Program-made: the position numbers and the translations under genes
Shown: positions 6,011 to 19,377 of the stretch, in pieces
How the letters are laid out: every line of letters begins with the position of its first letter
How positions within the stretch are numbered: position 1 is the stretch's first letter
Virus record (IMG/VR): IMGVR_UViG_3300010354_000855
Coordinates: 1 to 20,745 of that record
DNA length: 20,745 bases
Reading direction: 5' to 3' (one strand)
DNA from: a virus
Notes under the pieces: generated by a model
Seen by the model: only the letters and a program-made list of their open reading frames with translations
Databases searched by the model: none
Told to the model about the DNA's origin: nothing

Positions 6011-7216
6011 TTAGATACCTTCGTCGGTTCCGGCGTTGACCATATTCAGCGGCTGAAGGTACACGTCGCCACCTTCAACGTCGCCGAGGTTTTCTTTTTT
6101 GCGAATGTCGTTCACCGACAACCAACCCCATTGGCGGCCGACGGCGTACGCATCGTATCGTGATTTAATGTCACCACGAAGCAAACCTTGGAGGTTGAAC
6201 TGAACGAACAACGTTGAATCCATACCGAACAATTTGTCGGTGAATTCTTGTTCCCAGCGAACCGCCCACGGACGAATCGTATTGCGGACGAATTGAATGC
6301 CTTGTTCCTCGATGTTCGCGCGCGTTGACGATTGCGACAAATCGCCGAGCATATGCGGCGGGATCAAAAACCAGCGTGCGACCTCTTGCGTTTGGAATTG
6401 GCGCGTTTGTAGAAACTGCGCTTGGTCGGGCGGAATCGTCATTTTCTCGATTCGCATCCCCTCTTCGAGGATTGCCGTTTTGTGCGAGTTGCCCAAACCG
6501 CCGTACGAGTTGGCCCACGATTGGCGCAAACGAACGTATGCTTCGTCGGACAAACGACCGGGGTGCGTTAACACGCCACCGACGTTTGCGCCGTTGCCGA
6601 AGAATTCGGCACCGAACTGATTTGCCGCCAAACCAATTCCAAAGGTTTCGCGGGCGGCCTTAATCGGTGACAAACCGACGACGCCGTCGAACGACAATCC
6701 GCAAACGTGGATCATTTCGAAATCGGCGTAAACCTCTTTTTTGTCGACGTGGTAAAATTTCTCGCCGTCGACGACCTTCACCTCAACGCGCAACGGGTGA
6801 ATCGGAACCATTTTGGTTGGTTTGCCCGTGCCGTCGCGCTCGATGAATGCGTACGCGTTGCCGTGAAGGCACAAATGCGCCATCATCGTTTCGCGGAAAA
6901 CCATTGACGTCATCATCGCGTTCGGGCGATGCAACAATTGACCAATCGGGTTTCCAGTTACCACGACGGGCGATTCGCCCTCGATGGTGTAAACGTTCCA
7001 CGGCAATGAACCGATTGTTTCCGATAAAATGCGAACTGATGCCCAAACCGCGGAAAATGTCATCGCGGATTTTTCGTTGACCGAAACACCCGTTTTCGAA
7101 CGCTCGTCCGAGAACAACCATTCGGCGGGTTTAGCCAACGACGTCGACGGGTTGTTCGGTGACGCGCGGAACAAACCGCGAACGCGGTCGAGGAATGTGG
7201 TTTGTGTTTCGGCCAT
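6011..7216 (-). CDS. Portal protein, HK97 family
   Basis: A 401-residue protein. Recognisable segments: AMTFSAVWASVRILSETIGS at 51-70, the wing/stem region LLHRPNAMMTSMVFRETMMA, GNAYAFIERD, FEMIHVCGLSFDGVVGLSPI, the GANVGGVLTHPG loop, and the C-terminal VARWFLIPPHMLGDLSQSST. All follow the HK97 (Phage_portal) family. The protein forms the dodecameric DNA channel at one capsid vertex. The start at 7216 follows an AT-rich leader without Shine-Dalgarno. It is the first gene after repeat element R1, so a transcript start for the head genes may lie between 7217 and 7283; only an imperfect -7-like box (TACATTCG) is visible. Confidence 0.92.
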   Translation of the reverse strand: MAETQTTFLDRVRGLFRASPNNPSTSLAKPAEWLFSDERSKTGVSVNEKSAMTFSAVWASVRILSETIGSLPWNVYTIEGESPVVVTGNPIGQLLHRPNAMMTSMVFRETMMAHLCLHGNAYAFIERDGTGKPTKMVPIHPLRVEVKVVDGEKFYHVDKKEVYADFEMIHVCGLSFDGVVGLSPIKAARETFGIGLAANQFGAEFFGNGANVGGVLTHPGRLSDEAYVRLRQSWANSYGGLGNSHKTAILEEGMRIEKMTIPPDQAQFLQTRQFQTQEVARWFLIPPHMLGDLSQSSTRANIEEQGIQFVRNTIRPWAVRWEQEFTDKLFGMDSTLFVQFNLQGLLRGDIKSRYDAYAVGRQWGWLSVNDIRKKENLGDVEGGDVYLQPLNMVNAGTDEGI

Positions 7217-7283
7217 TGTATAGGTTTCCCGTGCGAATGTACAAACTAATTCCCAACCAAGTGTAGGAATTGACCGAAAAAAT

Positions 7284-7375
7284 TTATTGACACGCGTTGT
7301 TGATTTTATTTTTATTTATATATCCCTTTAGGGATATATAAATAAAAATAAAATAAACGGCGCATCAATACGAAC
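7284..7375. repeat. Repeat element R1 with 52-bp perfect palindrome
   Basis: This 92-bp element matches R2 at 19201-19291. It has a 19-nt left flank beginning TTATTGACACGCG, a 52-bp palindrome at 7303-7354 (two 25-nt arms, AT-rich, meeting at CCCTTTAGGG) and a 21-nt right flank AAACGGCGCATCAATACGAA plus C. The flanks are identical in both copies. Within the palindrome the copies differ by one T/A change in the left arm with the matching A/T change in the right arm, and by one base at the centre. The flanks are themselves related as an inverted pair (TATTGA-CA-CGC against TATTGA-TG-CGC). It lies between the Nmad1-like gene and the portal gene. Role unknown: terminator, origin, regulator-binding site or small mobile element are all possible. 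Confidence 0.88.
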
Positions 7376-7706: not shown

Positions 7707-7860
7707 ATCGGGAAAAACGGCGGCGTCCGTAAATCGAAACGTGCATCGATTCGACCGCCTCGTACGCCACGATTTTTGGCGTACCCTCGTCCGTGTAAAG
7801 GTTAAACAATCGCTTGAAGGATTCAAGCGTCGCGCATTGATTTTCAAATTGTTGTGTCAT
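7648..7860 (-). CDS. Small conserved-looking protein after the large terminase, unknown
   Basis: A 70-residue protein starting with an ATGA overlap of the large terminase stop. It reads TLESFKRLFNLYTDEGTPKI, VAYEAVESMHVSIYGRRRFS, then RYESFQNSIKNANRHISNNE. The helix-rich composition and Y-G-R-R-R-F-S-x-Y-x-S-F end give the look of a conserved phage protein, but no function is recognised. Its C-terminus overlaps the next gene in a different frame; coupling to the terminase suggests a structural, packaging or modification accessory role. Confidence 0.6.
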   Translation of the reverse strand: MTQQFENQCATLESFKRLFNLYTDEGTPKIVAYEAVESMHVSIYGRRRFSRYESFQNSIKNANRHISNNE

Positions 7861-9425
7861 AAATAACGAATGCCAGTTGTTTCGTAAACGGACGACGTGT
7901 CCCCACCCGACCGCGTCGCGGTCATATATTCACCGACCGCCATCGCCAGCGCCACCACGCCGTCGATTTTGTCGCCCGATTTGTTCTTTACGAACTTGAC
8001 GTTCATCGCCTCGTCCATTTTCGTTTGCACGTTCGAAACCATCCAACGAAGCATCGCATTGCCGCCGTGGTGAAGTAATTTTTTCTTTACCAGTATTTCG
8101 ATTTCCCGAATTGGTTGGGTCATCGACGCAACCCCTTGGCCGAACGGATCCATATCCAAACCCGCCTCGCCCAACTTTTGAACCAATGCCGACGAGTTCC
8201 ACCGGTCAAAGGCGATTGACCGAATGTCGAACATTTCGCGAAGTTTAAGTATTTCTTTAAATAACACGTCGTAATCGGTTGAATTTCCATCCGTTACAAT
8301 CAACTCACCACGCGAAACGAATTGGTCGTACGACGCACCGGTTCGACCGCGCCGTTGTTCGACGGCGGCGGCGGAAACGAAAAACCGCGTGACGACCTTC
8401 ACCTCGCCGTCGTCCATTGGAAACACCAACACGAACGCCGTCACGTCGGACACCGACGCCAAGTCCAAACCGCCGTAGCACGGCACGCCGACGAGTTCCT
8501 CCAGTACGACGTCGCCAGCCGACGCCATCCAATCGGTGTCGGTCAACCATCCGTCAAACGCCGAAATCCATTGGTTGAGGTGCAGTTGCTTGAACGCGAT
8601 TTCCGACGTCGGCAATATGCGCGCCTCGGCCGCCATTTTCTCGAAATAATCCAACCGCACCGACACCCCGAGGTTCGGGTTTGCCACCGCCCACGTTTCG
8701 GGCGAAAACGGGTCGGCATCCATTGGCGCCTCGTAAATCACGGGCAAAAACGTTCGGTCGTCAATCGCGCCCGTCAACACGCGTTTGCCGTATTCGTACA
8801 ATTCACGACACAAACCACCGCGGTCGATACCCGCCGTACTGATTCCCAAAATCAATGGTTGGGAACGTGCGCCCGTCGAGGTCGTCAAAACCTCCCACAA
8901 TTCACGATTCGGTGCCGAATGCAATTCATCGTACAACACCGCCGACGCGTTGAATCCGTGCTTTGTCGATGCGTCCGCGGAAATGGCCTTGATGAACGAA
9001 TTTGAATTGTTCAGCACGATCGAGTTGCGGTAAATTTTGCATTTGCCGCGCAACAACGCGTTGTTTTGCACCATTTGTTTTTGCACCTCGAAAATGGCGT
9101 TCGCTTGTTCGCGGTCGGCCGCGGCGACGTAGATTTCCGCACCGGGTTCGTTGTCGCCGAATAATAGGTACAAACCAATCGCGGCAATGAGGTTCGATTT
9201 GCCGTTTTTACGCGGTAGAAACACGAACGACGTGCGGTACTGGCGTAACCCATCCGAACCAAGGGTTCCGAATAGTTGTTCAATATACGTGCGTTGCCAT
9301 TGTTCCAATAGGAACGGCTTGTTCGCCAAATCGCCCTTCACGTGCGTGCATAGGCGTTCAATGAAGTTCACCGCCCGCGCCGCACGCGCGGGGTCGATGG
9401 TTGGTTTGGTTTTACGTTTGGCCAT
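7857..9425 (-). CDS. terL: Terminase large subunit (ATPase and nuclease)
   Basis: A 522-residue protein of the Terminase_1 family. Walker A is PRKNGKS at 71-77, Walker B VLYDE at 163-167, followed by the TTSTGAR coupling segment at 181-187 and GISTAG. The RNase H-like nuclease half carries GGLDLASVSD (D321), AFDRWN (D407) and GDKIDGVVALAMA (D488), the three expected metal-binding acidic residues. It drives DNA into the prohead and cuts concatemers; partners are the small terminase at 10216-10671 and the portal. The start ATG shares one base with the methyltransferase stop (TAATG). The methyltransferase gene between the two terminase genes is unusual. Confidence 0.93.
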   Translation of the reverse strand: MAKRKTKPTIDPARAARAVNFIERLCTHVKGDLANKPFLLEQWQRTYIEQLFGTLGSDGLRQYRTSFVFLPRKNGKSNLIAAIGLYLLFGDNEPGAEIYVAAADREQANAIFEVQKQMVQNNALLRGKCKIYRNSIVLNNSNSFIKAISADASTKHGFNASAVLYDELHSAPNRELWEVLTTSTGARSQPLILGISTAGIDRGGLCRELYEYGKRVLTGAIDDRTFLPVIYEAPMDADPFSPETWAVANPNLGVSVRLDYFEKMAAEARILPTSEIAFKQLHLNQWISAFDGWLTDTDWMASAGDVVLEELVGVPCYGGLDLASVSDVTAFVLVFPMDDGEVKVVTRFFVSAAAVEQRRGRTGASYDQFVSRGELIVTDGNSTDYDVLFKEILKLREMFDIRSIAFDRWNSSALVQKLGEAGLDMDPFGQGVASMTQPIREIEILVKKKLLHHGGNAMLRWMVSNVQTKMDEAMNVKFVKNKSGDKIDGVVALAMAVGEYMTATRSGGDTSSVYETTGIRYL

Positions 9426-10219
9426 TAGAACAATGTCGGTTGGTTGAGTATTTCATTGATTCTCGACGTTGCCAACGAAACGTAATCGGGCGAAATGTCG
9501 ATGCCGACGAATTCGCGTTTCGTCTTTGCCGCCATTCGACCGGTTGTTCCCGATCCGAGAAACGGATCCAAAACGACGTCGCCCTCATTCGACCACGACA
9601 AAATCATATCGTGCGCCAGTCGTTCGGGCATCATTGCGGGGTGACCCACCGCGGACGATTGTTTTTCGGTTGGGATTTGCCACACGTTGAAACGCATTCC
9701 GGTTTCTTTTACCTCGGTTTTGTTGTTGTTTGATTTCTCGTACATAGTGCCGTCGGCCTTGCGTGAAGTGCCGTGAACTTTGGTTCCGGCCCATTTGTTT
9801 TTTCGGTCGCAAATCGGGTTGAATACACGCGGTTTTCCCTTCGAAAAAACGAACACATATTCGAACGTGTCATAATAACGAACGACGTCGGGATATGCGA
9901 ACGTATCTTTTGACCAAATCATTGTGTCGTGAAGGTTGAATCCGCATTCCATCGCGAACAACGCTTGACGAAACGACGTTCCCGTTTCCGAACCATTGTT
10001 GTTTGAATCTTTGACGTTCCACACAACGACGCCGCCGTCGCAAACGACGCGGTGCAGTTCGCGAATGATTTGTTCCCAAACCAATTGGTTCCAGTTTGAA
10101 CCCACGCCCGTGTCATACGTGCGAAGGTTGTCGTAAGGCGGTGAGGTCACGACCAAATGAATGGACGCGTCGTCCATCGAACGCAAGACCTCGACCGAAT
10201 CGCCGCAATGTATTTTCAT
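9425..10219 (-). CDS. DNA methyltransferase (N4-cytosine or N6-adenine, beta-type motif order)
   Basis: A 264-residue protein. The catalytic motif TSPPY is at 25-29 and the AdoMet-binding motif DPFLGSG at 218-224, with EFVGIDISPDY following. Catalytic motif first and AdoMet motif last is the beta-class order. TSPPY occurs mainly in N4-cytosine and N6-adenine enzymes; which base is modified cannot be told from sequence alone. The middle region (about 125-190) contains the likely target-recognition part. It is coupled by ATGA to the small terminase and by TAATG to the large terminase. It probably protects phage DNA from restriction, or marks it for packaging; no partner restriction gene is present. 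Confidence 0.88.
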   Translation of the reverse strand: MKIHCGDSVEVLRSMDDASIHLVVTSPPYDNLRTYDTGVGSNWNQLVWEQIIRELHRVVCDGGVVVWNVKDSNNNGSETGTSFRQALFAMECGFNLHDTMIWSKDTFAYPDVVRYYDTFEYVFVFSKGKPRVFNPICDRKNKWAGTKVHGTSRKADGTMYEKSNNNKTEVKETGMRFNVWQIPTEKQSSAVGHPAMMPERLAHDMILSWSNEGDVVLDPFLGSGTTGRMAAKTKREFVGIDISPDYVSLATSRINEILNQPTLF

Positions 10220-10671
10220 AATAACAAATCGTCAATGTCTTGAACCTCATCTTTGGCGTCAATTTTTGCGCGTGAACTCGGCGTCAATCCGAATTCCGGT
10301 ATGATTTTTTTCAACCGATCCCACGCATTGTTCATCATCGCCAGTTCGGGACGCGGGCGCCACATAGTATCGCCCGTGTTGGTCGTCGTGGCGTACGTTG
10401 GGCCGTCGCGACGTATAACCTCGCGCGCGGCGATGTAATCTTCCCACGCGTCGGAAAACATTTGAAGCGCGAACGTGTCGATTTCCGATACCACACCAAC
10501 GCCCATCAAACGGGACGCGATGAACTCGTATGCGTCGCGTGAAATATCGCCGACGGACGCACGCGGCGTGGGCGACCCCAATGGTAGGGTCATTTTGTTT
10601 GCGTGTCGGTCGTCGCGGTACGTTCCCGCGGCTTTGAGCATTTCAGTTGGTTTGCGTTTTCTGCCCGGCAT
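10216..10671 (-). CDS. terS: Terminase small subunit (P27-like)
   Basis: A 151-residue protein. The N-terminus MPGRKRKPTEMLKAAGTYRD is characteristic of P27-family small terminases, as is the PTPRASVGDISRDAYEFIAS segment, the helical DAWEDYIAAREVIRRDGPTY and the end FGLTPSSRAKI. It should recognise the packaging site and recruit the large subunit. Its start lies inside the end of the Mom-like gene (29-base overlap), and its stop overlaps the methyltransferase start by ATGA. P27-type small terminases often travel with HNH endonucleases, and an HNH gene is present about 1.3 kb upstream. Confidence 0.85.
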   Translation of the reverse strand: MPGRKRKPTEMLKAAGTYRDDRHANKMTLPLGSPTPRASVGDISRDAYEFIASRLMGVGVVSEIDTFALQMFSDAWEDYIAAREVIRRDGPTYATTTNTGDTMWRPRPELAMMNNAWDRLKKIIPEFGLTPSSRAKIDAKDEVQDIDDLLL

Positions 10672-11359
10672 CGTTGTAATGTTTTGGATATGGTTGTTGT
10701 TTCAATGTGCAGTTTTTTTTGACGCGTTGGTCGAGCCATTTAATGTATCGGAATTGGCGCAATTGATGTGGTATCGCACGTTCCTTGTTTTGTTGTAACA
10801 CCATTTCGCGCGGTGATATTTTTGCCGGATCACGCGTCGTCATCGCCTTGTTGTGATACCATTCGCCGTCGAGTTCCCAAAACGTATTCACGTGCATTCC
10901 GTAAAAATCAAACGAACACGCTTGATACACAATTCCCAAACCGCCGCAACGCTCGTCGGCAAATGACTGAATCCATTTCACGCGCGGGTGCGTTCGTCGA
11001 ATGAATTTTATTGCATACGATACCGCGCGCGATTCTGAATTCCGCGGCGCCTCGTCGCCCAACCACATTCGGTTGAGTTCAAGGTATTCGTCTTGTTGCG
11101 TCCCGGTCACGACCGACGAACACGATGCTGGATTCATTGCCGGCCCGAATTGTAACGCGCCAACGTTTTGGTTGTTTATGAAGACACCGAGGTGAACGAA
11201 TGAACCTTGAACAATCGTTCCCGAATAATGTTTCGAACGAATGATTTTGTTGGCGTCGTTGCGCGGAATTTCGCGCACGCAAAATTCGTCAGTTCCAAAA
11301 CCAATTGGTTCGGGTTCGCCCCACAATGACGATTGATTGGAATAAATATATCCGGCCAT
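10643..11359 (-). CDS. Mom-like DNA adenine modification protein (GNAT-related)
   Basis: A 238-residue protein. The stretches SKHYSG (42-47), SFVHLGVFINNQNVGALQFG, ELNRMWLGDEAPRNSES (94-110), IQSFADERCGGLGIVYQA (130-147) and SFDFYG follow the Mom family of adenine methylcarbamoylation proteins, typified by phage Mu Mom. These modify adenines in DNA to block restriction. The conserved E/N-S-E-S and S-F-A-D residues are in place. The C-terminal part (about 175-238, with many basic residues) is less conserved and could contact DNA. It lies at the head of the packaging gene block. A 124-base gap upstream (11360-11483) has no clear promoter. The substrate and activity are inferred, not shown. Confidence 0.72.
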   Translation of the reverse strand: MAGYIYSNQSSLWGEPEPIGFGTDEFCVREIPRNDANKIIRSKHYSGTIVQGSFVHLGVFINNQNVGALQFGPAMNPASCSSVVTGTQQDEYLELNRMWLGDEAPRNSESRAVSYAIKFIRRTHPRVKWIQSFADERCGGLGIVYQACSFDFYGMHVNTFWELDGEWYHNKAMTTRDPAKISPREMVLQQNKERAIPHQLRQFRYIKWLDQRVKKNCTLKQQPYPKHYNDAGQKTQTN

Positions 11360-17721: not shown

Positions 17722-17861
17722 TTCCATTTCGGTATCGACACCAACATTGTGGCGAACGTGAACGATGCGACGATGTATCGGGTGTCGACGTCGGCGAACA
17801 CGACGACGGACGGCGTGAGGAAAAATGCGTCCTCGTTGCGCCAAGTGAATTCGATGGTCAT
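17718..17861 (-). CDS. Small unknown protein, 47 residues
   Basis: A 47-codon gene. The start at 17861 overlaps the DnaA-like stop as ATGA and its stop overlaps the exonuclease start as ATGA, so it is held precisely between two real genes. It reads MTIEFTWRNEDAFFLTPSVV, then VFADVDTRYIVASFTFATML and ends VSIPKWK. The sequence is strongly beta-prone and aromatic, without a transmembrane segment long enough to call. Function unknown. Confidence 0.6.
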   Translation of the reverse strand: MTIEFTWRNEDAFFLTPSVVVFADVDTRYIVASFTFATMLVSIPKWK

Positions 17862-18286
17862 TTTGTTTCGTTTTGTAAATCGTTTAACAACATTTGTAAA
17901 CGGGCAATTTCCCGTTGTAGGTATTCCGCGTCTTGTACGCGTGAATGGTACGCAACGTCCTCGCAGAACATTTTGTAATTCCGCACGTACGTCGCATCGA
18001 GGTGTCGGTTGGTGTTCCCAACCAATTCGTGCGCCTCGTTGTGAACCATCAATTGATGATGGATTGACGAATGGTTGCGGTTGACCAATGAACCGGTTTG
18101 CATTTGCGACAAACCGATTTCCCAGTACGCATAGGCGATAACCATACGACGTACCTCGTTGACGTTCGCCATCCGCGATTTGCGTTTGATAACGCCCGCC
18201 GGTAGGCCGGCCCAGTTCTCGGCGAACTGAACCAACCATTCGGCTTGCATTACGCGTTCGGCAACGTTAGAACGGGAAATTGTCAT
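17858..18286 (-). CDS. DnaA domain IV-like DNA-binding protein
   Basis: A 142-residue protein lacking the ATPase part of DnaA. Residues 37-84 have the DnaA domain IV form: a helix (NVNEVRRMVIAYAYWEIG), a helix-turn-helix (LSQMQTGSLV) and the signature NRNHSSIHHQLMVHNE, which corresponds to GGRDHTTVLHAVRKI of DnaA. This signature contacts DnaA boxes. The remainder is helical (QDAEYLQREIARLQMLLNDL at the C-terminus, a possible coiled coil). Sitting after the SSB gene in the replication block (20-base overlap), it might mark the phage origin or recruit host replication proteins. R1 and R2 contain a DnaA-box-like sequence, so they are candidate targets. Confidence 0.68.
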   Translation of the reverse strand: MTISRSNVAERVMQAEWLVQFAENWAGLPAGVIKRKSRMANVNEVRRMVIAYAYWEIGLSQMQTGSLVNRNHSSIHHQLMVHNEAHELVGNTNRHLDATYVRNYKMFCEDVAYHSRVQDAEYLQREIARLQMLLNDLQNETK

Positions 18287-18813: not shown

Positions 18814-18845
18814 CAAACGTACAACGGATTTTTCAACAAACCAAA
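18814..18845 (-). promoter_or_regulatory. Bacteroidetes-type promoter P2 for the replication operon
   Basis: On the minus strand TACGTTTG (18821-18814) lies 20 bases after TTTG (18845-18842), matching TTTG-N19-21-TAnnTTTG. It is 32 bases before the SSB start at 18782, with an A-rich leader (AAACAAACAAACG) and no Shine-Dalgarno. It lies just past the terminator at 18873-18900, as expected of an operon start. Confidence 0.7.
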
Positions 18846-18872: not shown

Positions 18873-18900
18873 AAAAAACCCCGCCGTTTGACGGGCGGGG
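18873..18900 (-). terminator. Intrinsic terminator after the 59-residue membrane protein gene
   Basis: Minus strand CCCCGCCCGTCAAACGGCGGGG forms a GC-rich stem, followed by TTTTTTATTTGTT. It starts about 40 bases after the stop at 18942. It isolates that gene from the replication operon. Confidence 0.82.
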
Positions 18901-18941
18901 CTGAATCGCGGGTTCGGAAATAAGAAACAAACAAACAAACG

Positions 18942-19121
18942 TCACCCGCGACGTTCGTATTTGTTGAAGTTGTCGTGTGCGGACGCACCCCATACCATAC
19001 CAAGGGTACCGAGTATGATTGTCCACGTCATTGATTCGTGGGCGACGGCGCAGAACGTGAAAATGACGGCGACCGACAATTGAATCATTGCTTTGCCGAG
19101 GTAGGTGTCTTTGTTTTCCAT
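18942..19121 (-). CDS. Small membrane protein, unknown function
   Basis: A 59-residue protein read from MENKDTYLGKAMIQLSVAVI at 19121. A reading from 19178 would span the promoter P1 and is rejected. Two hydrophobic segments are visible (MIQLSVAVIFTFCAV at 12-26 and MTWTIILGTLGMVWGAS at 31-47), followed by a polar, charged tail (HDNFNKYERRG). A two-pass inner-membrane protein is likely. It has its own promoter and terminator, so it is a one-gene early unit by position; superinfection exclusion or an anti-host role is conceivable but not supported by a recognised family. Confidence 0.6.
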   Translation of the reverse strand: MENKDTYLGKAMIQLSVAVIFTFCAVAHESMTWTIILGTLGMVWGASAHDNFNKYERRG

Positions 19122-19146: not shown

Positions 19147-19179
19147 CAAACATACGACGAAAATTCATTCCAAACCAAA
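19147..19179 (-). promoter_or_regulatory. Bacteroidetes-type promoter P1
   Basis: On the minus strand TATGTTTG (19154-19147) is preceded by TTTG at N21 (19179-19176); another TTTG lies at N16. The -7 box matches TAnnTTTG exactly. It is 26 bases upstream of the ATG at 19121, supporting that start for the 59-residue membrane protein. Confidence 0.62.
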
Positions 19180-19200: not shown

Positions 19201-19291
19201 TTATTGACACGCGTTGTTGATTTTATTTTTATATATATATCCCTTAGGGATATATATATAAAAATAAAATAAACGGCGCATCAATACGAAC
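19201..19291. repeat. Repeat element R2 with 51-bp palindrome
   Basis: This 91-bp copy of R1 (7284-7375) has identical outer flanks (TTATTGACACGCGTTGTTG on the left, AAACGGCGCATCAATACGAA on the right) and a 51-bp palindrome at 19220-19270 whose arms meet at CCCTTAGGG. Compared with R1 it has one paired substitution in the arms and one base fewer at the centre. It lies between the lysis cassette terminator and promoter P1, outside any gene. Confidence 0.88.
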
Positions 19292-19334
19292 CAAATAAAT
19301 AAACAAAAACTTTCCAACAAATTGGTTTGACCAT

Positions 19335-19356
19335 AAAAAAACCCGCACGCGGCGGG
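19335..19356 (-). terminator. Intrinsic terminator of the lysis operon
   Basis: Minus-strand CCCGC-CGCGT-GCGGG is followed directly by TTTTTTT, a standard hairpin and T-tract. It begins 22 bases after the u-spanin stop at 19378, marking the end of the lysis cassette and insulating R2 and the early unit from late transcription. Confidence 0.82.
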
Positions 19357-19377
19357 CTGAACCAATTGGTTTGGCAA

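Follow-up and report, generated by a model that had tools for sequence, protein, structure and literature searches.

Every gene in the window, by which we mean the whole 20,745-nucleotide stretch of viral DNA analysed here (IMG/VR virus record IMGVR_UViG_3300010354_000855), lies on the minus strand, and two of its intergenic gaps carry almost the same long palindromic element. The locus raises the question of what such a pair does, and whether it acts as DNA or as RNA.

Two copies of a hairpin element at the borders of the gene blocks

The window derives from the genome of a small siphophage with a terminase, a portal and an HK97-type major head protein, together with Prim-Pol, exonuclease and ssDNA-binding proteins. 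Cellulophaga and Flavobacterium phages encode the nearest named relatives of its primase, which makes a host among the Bacteroidota probable; a terminase search for copies in host chromosomes found no prophage. The genes are arranged as two blocks. The early block runs from behind R2, the second copy of the element, to the terminase, and the late block runs from behind R1, the first copy, through portal, capsid, tail and lysis genes to a terminator at 19358-19340 that closes it. Only both ends of the late block fall inside the window, with the middle missing. From this layout, R1 and R2 are the two block borders. The features concerned are as follows (plus-strand coordinates).

6011..7216, minus strand: portal gene (phrog_12), with which the late block begins behind R1
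7285..7370, minus strand: R1 hairpin element, whole, with outer stem, internal loop, perfect inner palindrome and tip
7285..7295, minus strand: 3' side of the R1 outer stem (as coding-strand RNA), GCGUGUCAAUA
7303..7354, minus strand: R1 perfect palindrome, 25-bp arms at 7303-7327 and 7330-7354 with a 2-nt centre
7360..7370, minus strand: 5' side of the R1 outer stem (as coding-strand RNA), UAUUGAUGCGC
7857..9425, minus strand: terminase large subunit gene (phrog_9), lying late in the early block, ahead of R1
18942..19121, minus strand: first gene behind R2, conserved, for a small membrane-like protein of 59 aa
19202..19286, minus strand: R2 hairpin element, whole
19220..19270, minus strand: R2 perfect palindrome, 25-bp arms at 19220-19244 and 19246-19270 with a 1-nt centre

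R1 occupies a 181-nt gap preceding the portal gene, and R2 the gap preceding the first early gene. Comparison of the two copies bore out the earlier note on several points: the element is duplicated in these gaps, its flanks are identical, the single T/A difference in one arm has its A/T counterpart in the other, and the centres differ by one base, that of R2 being one base shorter. The note had also placed both copies at module borders, which was correct, but R1 lies within the usual head module, dividing the terminase and a small gene from the portal, and does not simply precede the head genes. The flanks, previously taken for an imperfect dyad, are better described as an outer stem in which minus-strand UAUUGAUGCGC pairs with GCGUGUCAAUA via two adjacent G-U wobbles. 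Folded as coding-strand RNA, R1 reaches -42 kcal/mol compared with -11.2 +/- 2.5 kcal/mol for dinucleotide shuffles (z = -12.3), a stability far above chance expectation.

Several known classes of element were examined, and most were rejected. Simple terminator function had been judged unlikely in the earlier note, and for an intrinsic (rho-independent) terminator this held: the 3' arm is A-rich, the stem has no U-tract of its own, and a terminator scan lists 19358-19340 and 18902-18877, not R1 or R2. No Rfam family matched above its gathering score in the window. The protelomerase domain of hairpin-telomere phages (PF16684) was found in 0 of 12 records, mostly incomplete, with the control matching in one genome. 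The single-subunit RNA polymerase expected with N4-like hairpin promoters (PF00940) was found in 0 of 12 records, but the control genomes gave no match either. A transposon-derived repeat (MITE/REP) does not fit exactly two copies confined to operon borders. A DnaA-box reading was also set aside: TTATYGACA occurs exactly three times in the window, always at R1 or R2, and with one mismatch allowed it is no commoner than chance. When the R1/R2 flank pattern was run against 257 Gb of sequence, 8 bacterial contigs from unrelated phyla matched, which is compatible with chance, and the hairpins of the near clade and of clade 3 had no significant match among named phages.

Symmetric rewriting of the arms in near relatives

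Pattern and protein searches recovered 29 copies from near relatives (clade 1) and later a thirtieth (n = 30). Each near relative whose contig spans both borders has two copies, which precede the portal gene and the same small early gene, respectively. The ends of IMG/VR contig 3300035665_000199 (L126 + L127) overlap by 1222 bp at 95% identity; this genome of ~26 kb is therefore near-complete, and it still has only two copies. A 32.9-kb relative (L116 + L117) has an end overlap of 175 bp.

All 30 copies contain a perfect palindrome of 23-27 bp, built from about ten different arm sequences that consist almost exclusively of A and T outside the tip. No half-changed, asymmetric arm was found among the 30 copies, and loops were seen in both orientations (TAC/GTA, TAAA/TTTA). 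A tree of the R1 copies built from flanking coding DNA required at least 7 arm changes and at least 5 loop changes. The flanks are nearly invariant apart from L020 and L145, where their pairing is partly lost. The search of relatives proposed earlier revealed the paired substitutions and border siting it was meant to look for, and found no copy away from the borders.

Template switching during replication produces multi-base compensatory changes and loop inversions without intermediates (PMC8794818). About ten arm types, no intermediate and inverted loops favour such single events here, and the mutation pattern leads us to infer that the arms are kept perfectly paired mainly by template switching that copies one arm from the other. 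The matched T/A-A/T change between R1 and R2 would then probably be one template-switch mutation and not two selected substitutions. The proposal of selection for pairing thus stands in part: pairing is kept in every relative found, but the compensatory change cited for it probably arose in one step. Since two-sided changes without intermediates and loop inversions are template-switch products, perfect pairing owes something to mutation in addition to selection, and read by itself it would exaggerate the latter. The likeness to the published cases (PMC8794818) extends to multi-base compensatory changes, loop inversions and missing intermediates; those cases are RNA genes (rRNA and microRNA genes), whereas R1 and R2 are an intergenic phage element in which whole arms are rewritten. 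As a clear example from nature of symmetric, single-step rewriting of both arms and loops, the element opens the template-switch explanation of how RNA stems evolve to tests in a virus that changes quickly.

Hairpins of other sequence at the same borders in distant clades

Clades 2, 3 and 4 carry hairpins of other sequence at both borders. The R1-border hairpin of clade 2 (terminase 79% identical) differs from that of the window and has the outer stem GGGAUGUGU/ACGCGUCCC; at the clade 2 R2 border, of which only one was found, the same inner hairpin stands on a different outer stem, CCGGCGU/GCGCCGG. Clade 3 (terminase about 64%) has an 82-nt hairpin at both borders. An ungapped alignment of 11 clade 3 sequences gave 14 pairs with 154 of 154 cells paired, and contained 8 two-sided changes compared with 2.0 +/- 1.0 in shuffles (0 of 500 reached 8; none were counted when slid). 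Outer stems differ between clade 3 members yet pair in each (UCUGC/GCAGA, UUUGUC/GACAAA, UUUACC/GGUAAA). A covariance model built from the clade 3 hairpins detected both border copies in clade 4, and further subgroups have another hairpin behind the same upstream block described below.

These data indicate an element conserved for its structure, with no sequence kept apart from the lower helix, and such conservation makes RNA its most likely form of action. The lower helix is common to R1 and R2 within one lineage and different between lineages, a pattern suggesting either a single trans factor for the two copies or gene conversion between them. The earlier note had proposed protein-binding sites in the flanks. 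Other clades change the flank sequence completely and still pair it as an outer stem, which makes a pair of protein half-sites the less likely description; a bound protein is possible in the near clade, where the flanks are nearly invariant.

We also compared the folding energies of the two strands. Every variant of clades 2 and 3 folds more stably as the coding strand than as its complement. Of the 16 clade 1 variants, 11 do so too and four tie within 0.1 kcal/mol; for the R1 and R2 of the window itself the difference is negligible. This preference favours RNA, or single-stranded DNA of the coding strand, over a double-stranded DNA site. The choice between cruciform and RNA hairpin, left undecided in the note, is thus shifted towards coding-strand RNA by the energies in clades 2 to 4 and only weakly so in the clade of the window. 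GC skew along the window gave no origin signal and no skew switch.

Promoter-like signals and terminators beside the hairpins

The sigma-A -7 consensus of flavobacteria is TAnnTTTG (PMC9723704). Inspection of the regions beside R1 and R2 gave the following features.

7242..7249, minus strand: weak Bacteroidota-type -7 box TTAGTTTG, one mismatch, between R1 and portal; TATTTTTG in 16 of 21 R1 copies
18814..18821, minus strand: separate promoter box TACGTTTG, before the SSB gene
18877..18902, minus strand: strong terminator after the first early gene, between it and the SSB gene; kept in all nine clade 1-2 genomes examined
19147..19154, minus strand: perfect -7 box of Bacteroidota type, TATGTTTG, preceded at 16 nt by TTG and lying between R2 and the first early gene
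19287..19326, minus strand: T-rich block immediately ahead of R2, common to R1 and R2 in several relatives for about 40 nt, after which similarity ends
19340..19358, minus strand: intrinsic terminator at the end of the late/lysis block, shortly ahead of R2

A TAnnTTTG box lies 25-37 nt ahead of the ATG, behind the hairpin, in 24 of 29 near copies, so that the gene-proximal box has the form and position of a Bacteroidota sigma-A promoter. No perfect TAnnTTTG was present upstream of the hairpin in any of the 29. Distant clades have another, unusual and promoter-like arrangement at each border, in which a TTAACA-N6-TGTTAA dyad and, exactly 18 nt after it, TATATATAG closely precede the hairpin (for example in L132 at 2258 and 18652, and in L131, L169, L176 and others). 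The spacing of 18 nt between the dyad and TATATATA is fixed, and the block lies where a T-rich setting gives way to an A-rich one. No such dyad block was seen upstream of the hairpin in clade 2, where a terminator ends about 30 nt ahead of the R1 hairpin. The terminator after the first early gene is absent from most clade 3-5 genomes.

Possible roles of the paired hairpins

The fixed-spacing upstream block is most simply a promoter, and if it is read as one the hairpin would be part of an untranslated leader. We consider it nearly an even chance that R1 and R2 are a structured cis-element forming a hairpin in untranslated minus-strand RNA, most likely the leader of both operons. Each copy would mark the head of one of the two transcription blocks and would be transcribed from the signal just upstream of the hairpin. 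In the predicted transcript a long U-rich/A-rich helix would stand on the outer stem with its asymmetric internal loop, and it could shield or process the 5' region of the RNA or bind a factor common to both operons, placing the two blocks under joint control. The host-type promoter between hairpin and gene would supply a second transcript without the hairpin. Four observations count against a leader. None of the 29 near copies has a perfect TAnnTTTG ahead of the hairpin, the clade 2 terminator is so close to the R1 hairpin that it leaves scant room for a promoter, the conserved upstream blocks and AT-rich region would also suit a DNA function, and the strand preference rests on clades 2 to 4, the strands being near-equal in the clade of the window.

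The stem-loops of ompA-type 5' leaders are untranslated, lie near the mRNA head and stabilise the mRNA. R1 and R2 likewise form an untranslated hairpin near a putative mRNA head, but they belong to a phage, occur twice and also precede a second promoter. A bolder form of the leader reading, which we think unlikely, is that they represent an undescribed family of paired phage RNA regulators, in which a lineage-specific factor would force the hairpins of both leaders to co-evolve and one RNA-binding event would switch early and late genes.

Other roles at the same borders were weighed against a leader. Hairpins of phage T7 cut by RNase III consist of long dsRNA with an outer stem and an asymmetric internal loop, lie between gene blocks and give separate mRNAs. 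R1 and R2 share this build, with dsRNA of about 20 bp or more, and with it the features of an RNase III site, at which cleavage is putative; they differ in having a perfect A/U helix (near clade) and only two sites, both at operon borders. Read-through RNA might accordingly fold at the border and either be cut by RNase III or have its 3' end shielded, separating the two operon mRNAs. The element invariably comes after the final gene of a block (and after the terminator of that block, if present), and at R1 of clades 1 and 3 the early block has no other closing signal. However, a strong terminator precedes the hairpin at several borders, so that little RNA would arrive although the hairpin is equally conserved there, and the fixed-spacing dyad/TATATATA block is left unexplained; we regard this role as possible but on the improbable side. 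A DNA element, in which a strand-specific hairpin or cruciform would serve the primase or initiator of the phage (as an origin or a site of single-strand initiation) or else a regulator acting on the downstream promoter, appears quite unlikely. The perfect palindromes are very AT-rich, the dyad and AT-rich block adjoin the hairpin, which is directly upstream of a promoter, and the phage encodes Prim-Pol/helicase, SSB-like and weakly DnaA-domain-like proteins. Yet there are two copies per genome, each at an operon head, the GC-skew switch is absent, and dsDNA binding does not fit the changing outer stems or the more stable folding that the coding strand shows in clades 2 to 4.

Lambda nut and HK022 put are hairpin RNA sites present twice per genome, once per operon head. 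Copy number and operon-head siting are the same for R1 and R2, whose hairpin RNA is predicted; the helix here is much longer and A/U-rich, and downstream terminators are not universal. An antitermination site of this type, at which a nascent-RNA hairpin lets RNA polymerase pass later terminators, would suit the strong terminator behind R2. We demoted it to a distinctly improbable reading because the genes behind that terminator have their own promoter box at 18821 and most clade 3-5 genomes lack the terminator. It is least probable of all that R1 and R2 are a neutral inserted repeat (MITE-like) or a recombination linker without function of its own: duplicated sequence does sit at module borders, but no copies occur elsewhere in these genomes, clades with unrelated sequence use the same two borders, and the stems covary.

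The element is real, family-wide and outside Rfam, and is best described as a variant of known hairpin control elements. The data establish its position, copy number, pairing and symmetric evolution and the promoter-like boxes beside it; its transcription, its place in a leader and its role are inferred. Gene regulation has been little mapped in small Bacteroidota siphophages, and here a family-wide cis-element with covariation support stands at both operon heads.

Other genes and repeats in the window

The product of the gene at 10643-11359 (minus strand) strongly matched the Mom DNA-modification family (Pfam PF25680, E 2.6e-67). The neighbouring gene at 9425-10219 probably encodes a DNA methyltransferase, to judge by sequence only, and the phage may modify its own DNA. 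A 142-aa protein encoded at 17858-18286 (minus strand) has a weak likeness to the DnaA DNA-binding domain, its match to Pfam Bac_DnaA_C falling below the cut-off, with a best E of 1.1e-4 among relatives; a search for a solved relative of it found none. This protein is conserved in clade 1 and has weak matches elsewhere in clade 3-4 contigs. A short palindrome, AACCAATTGGTT, recurs in similar surroundings at 10072-10096, 11292-11316 and 19359-19377 (repeat families D13 and I11).
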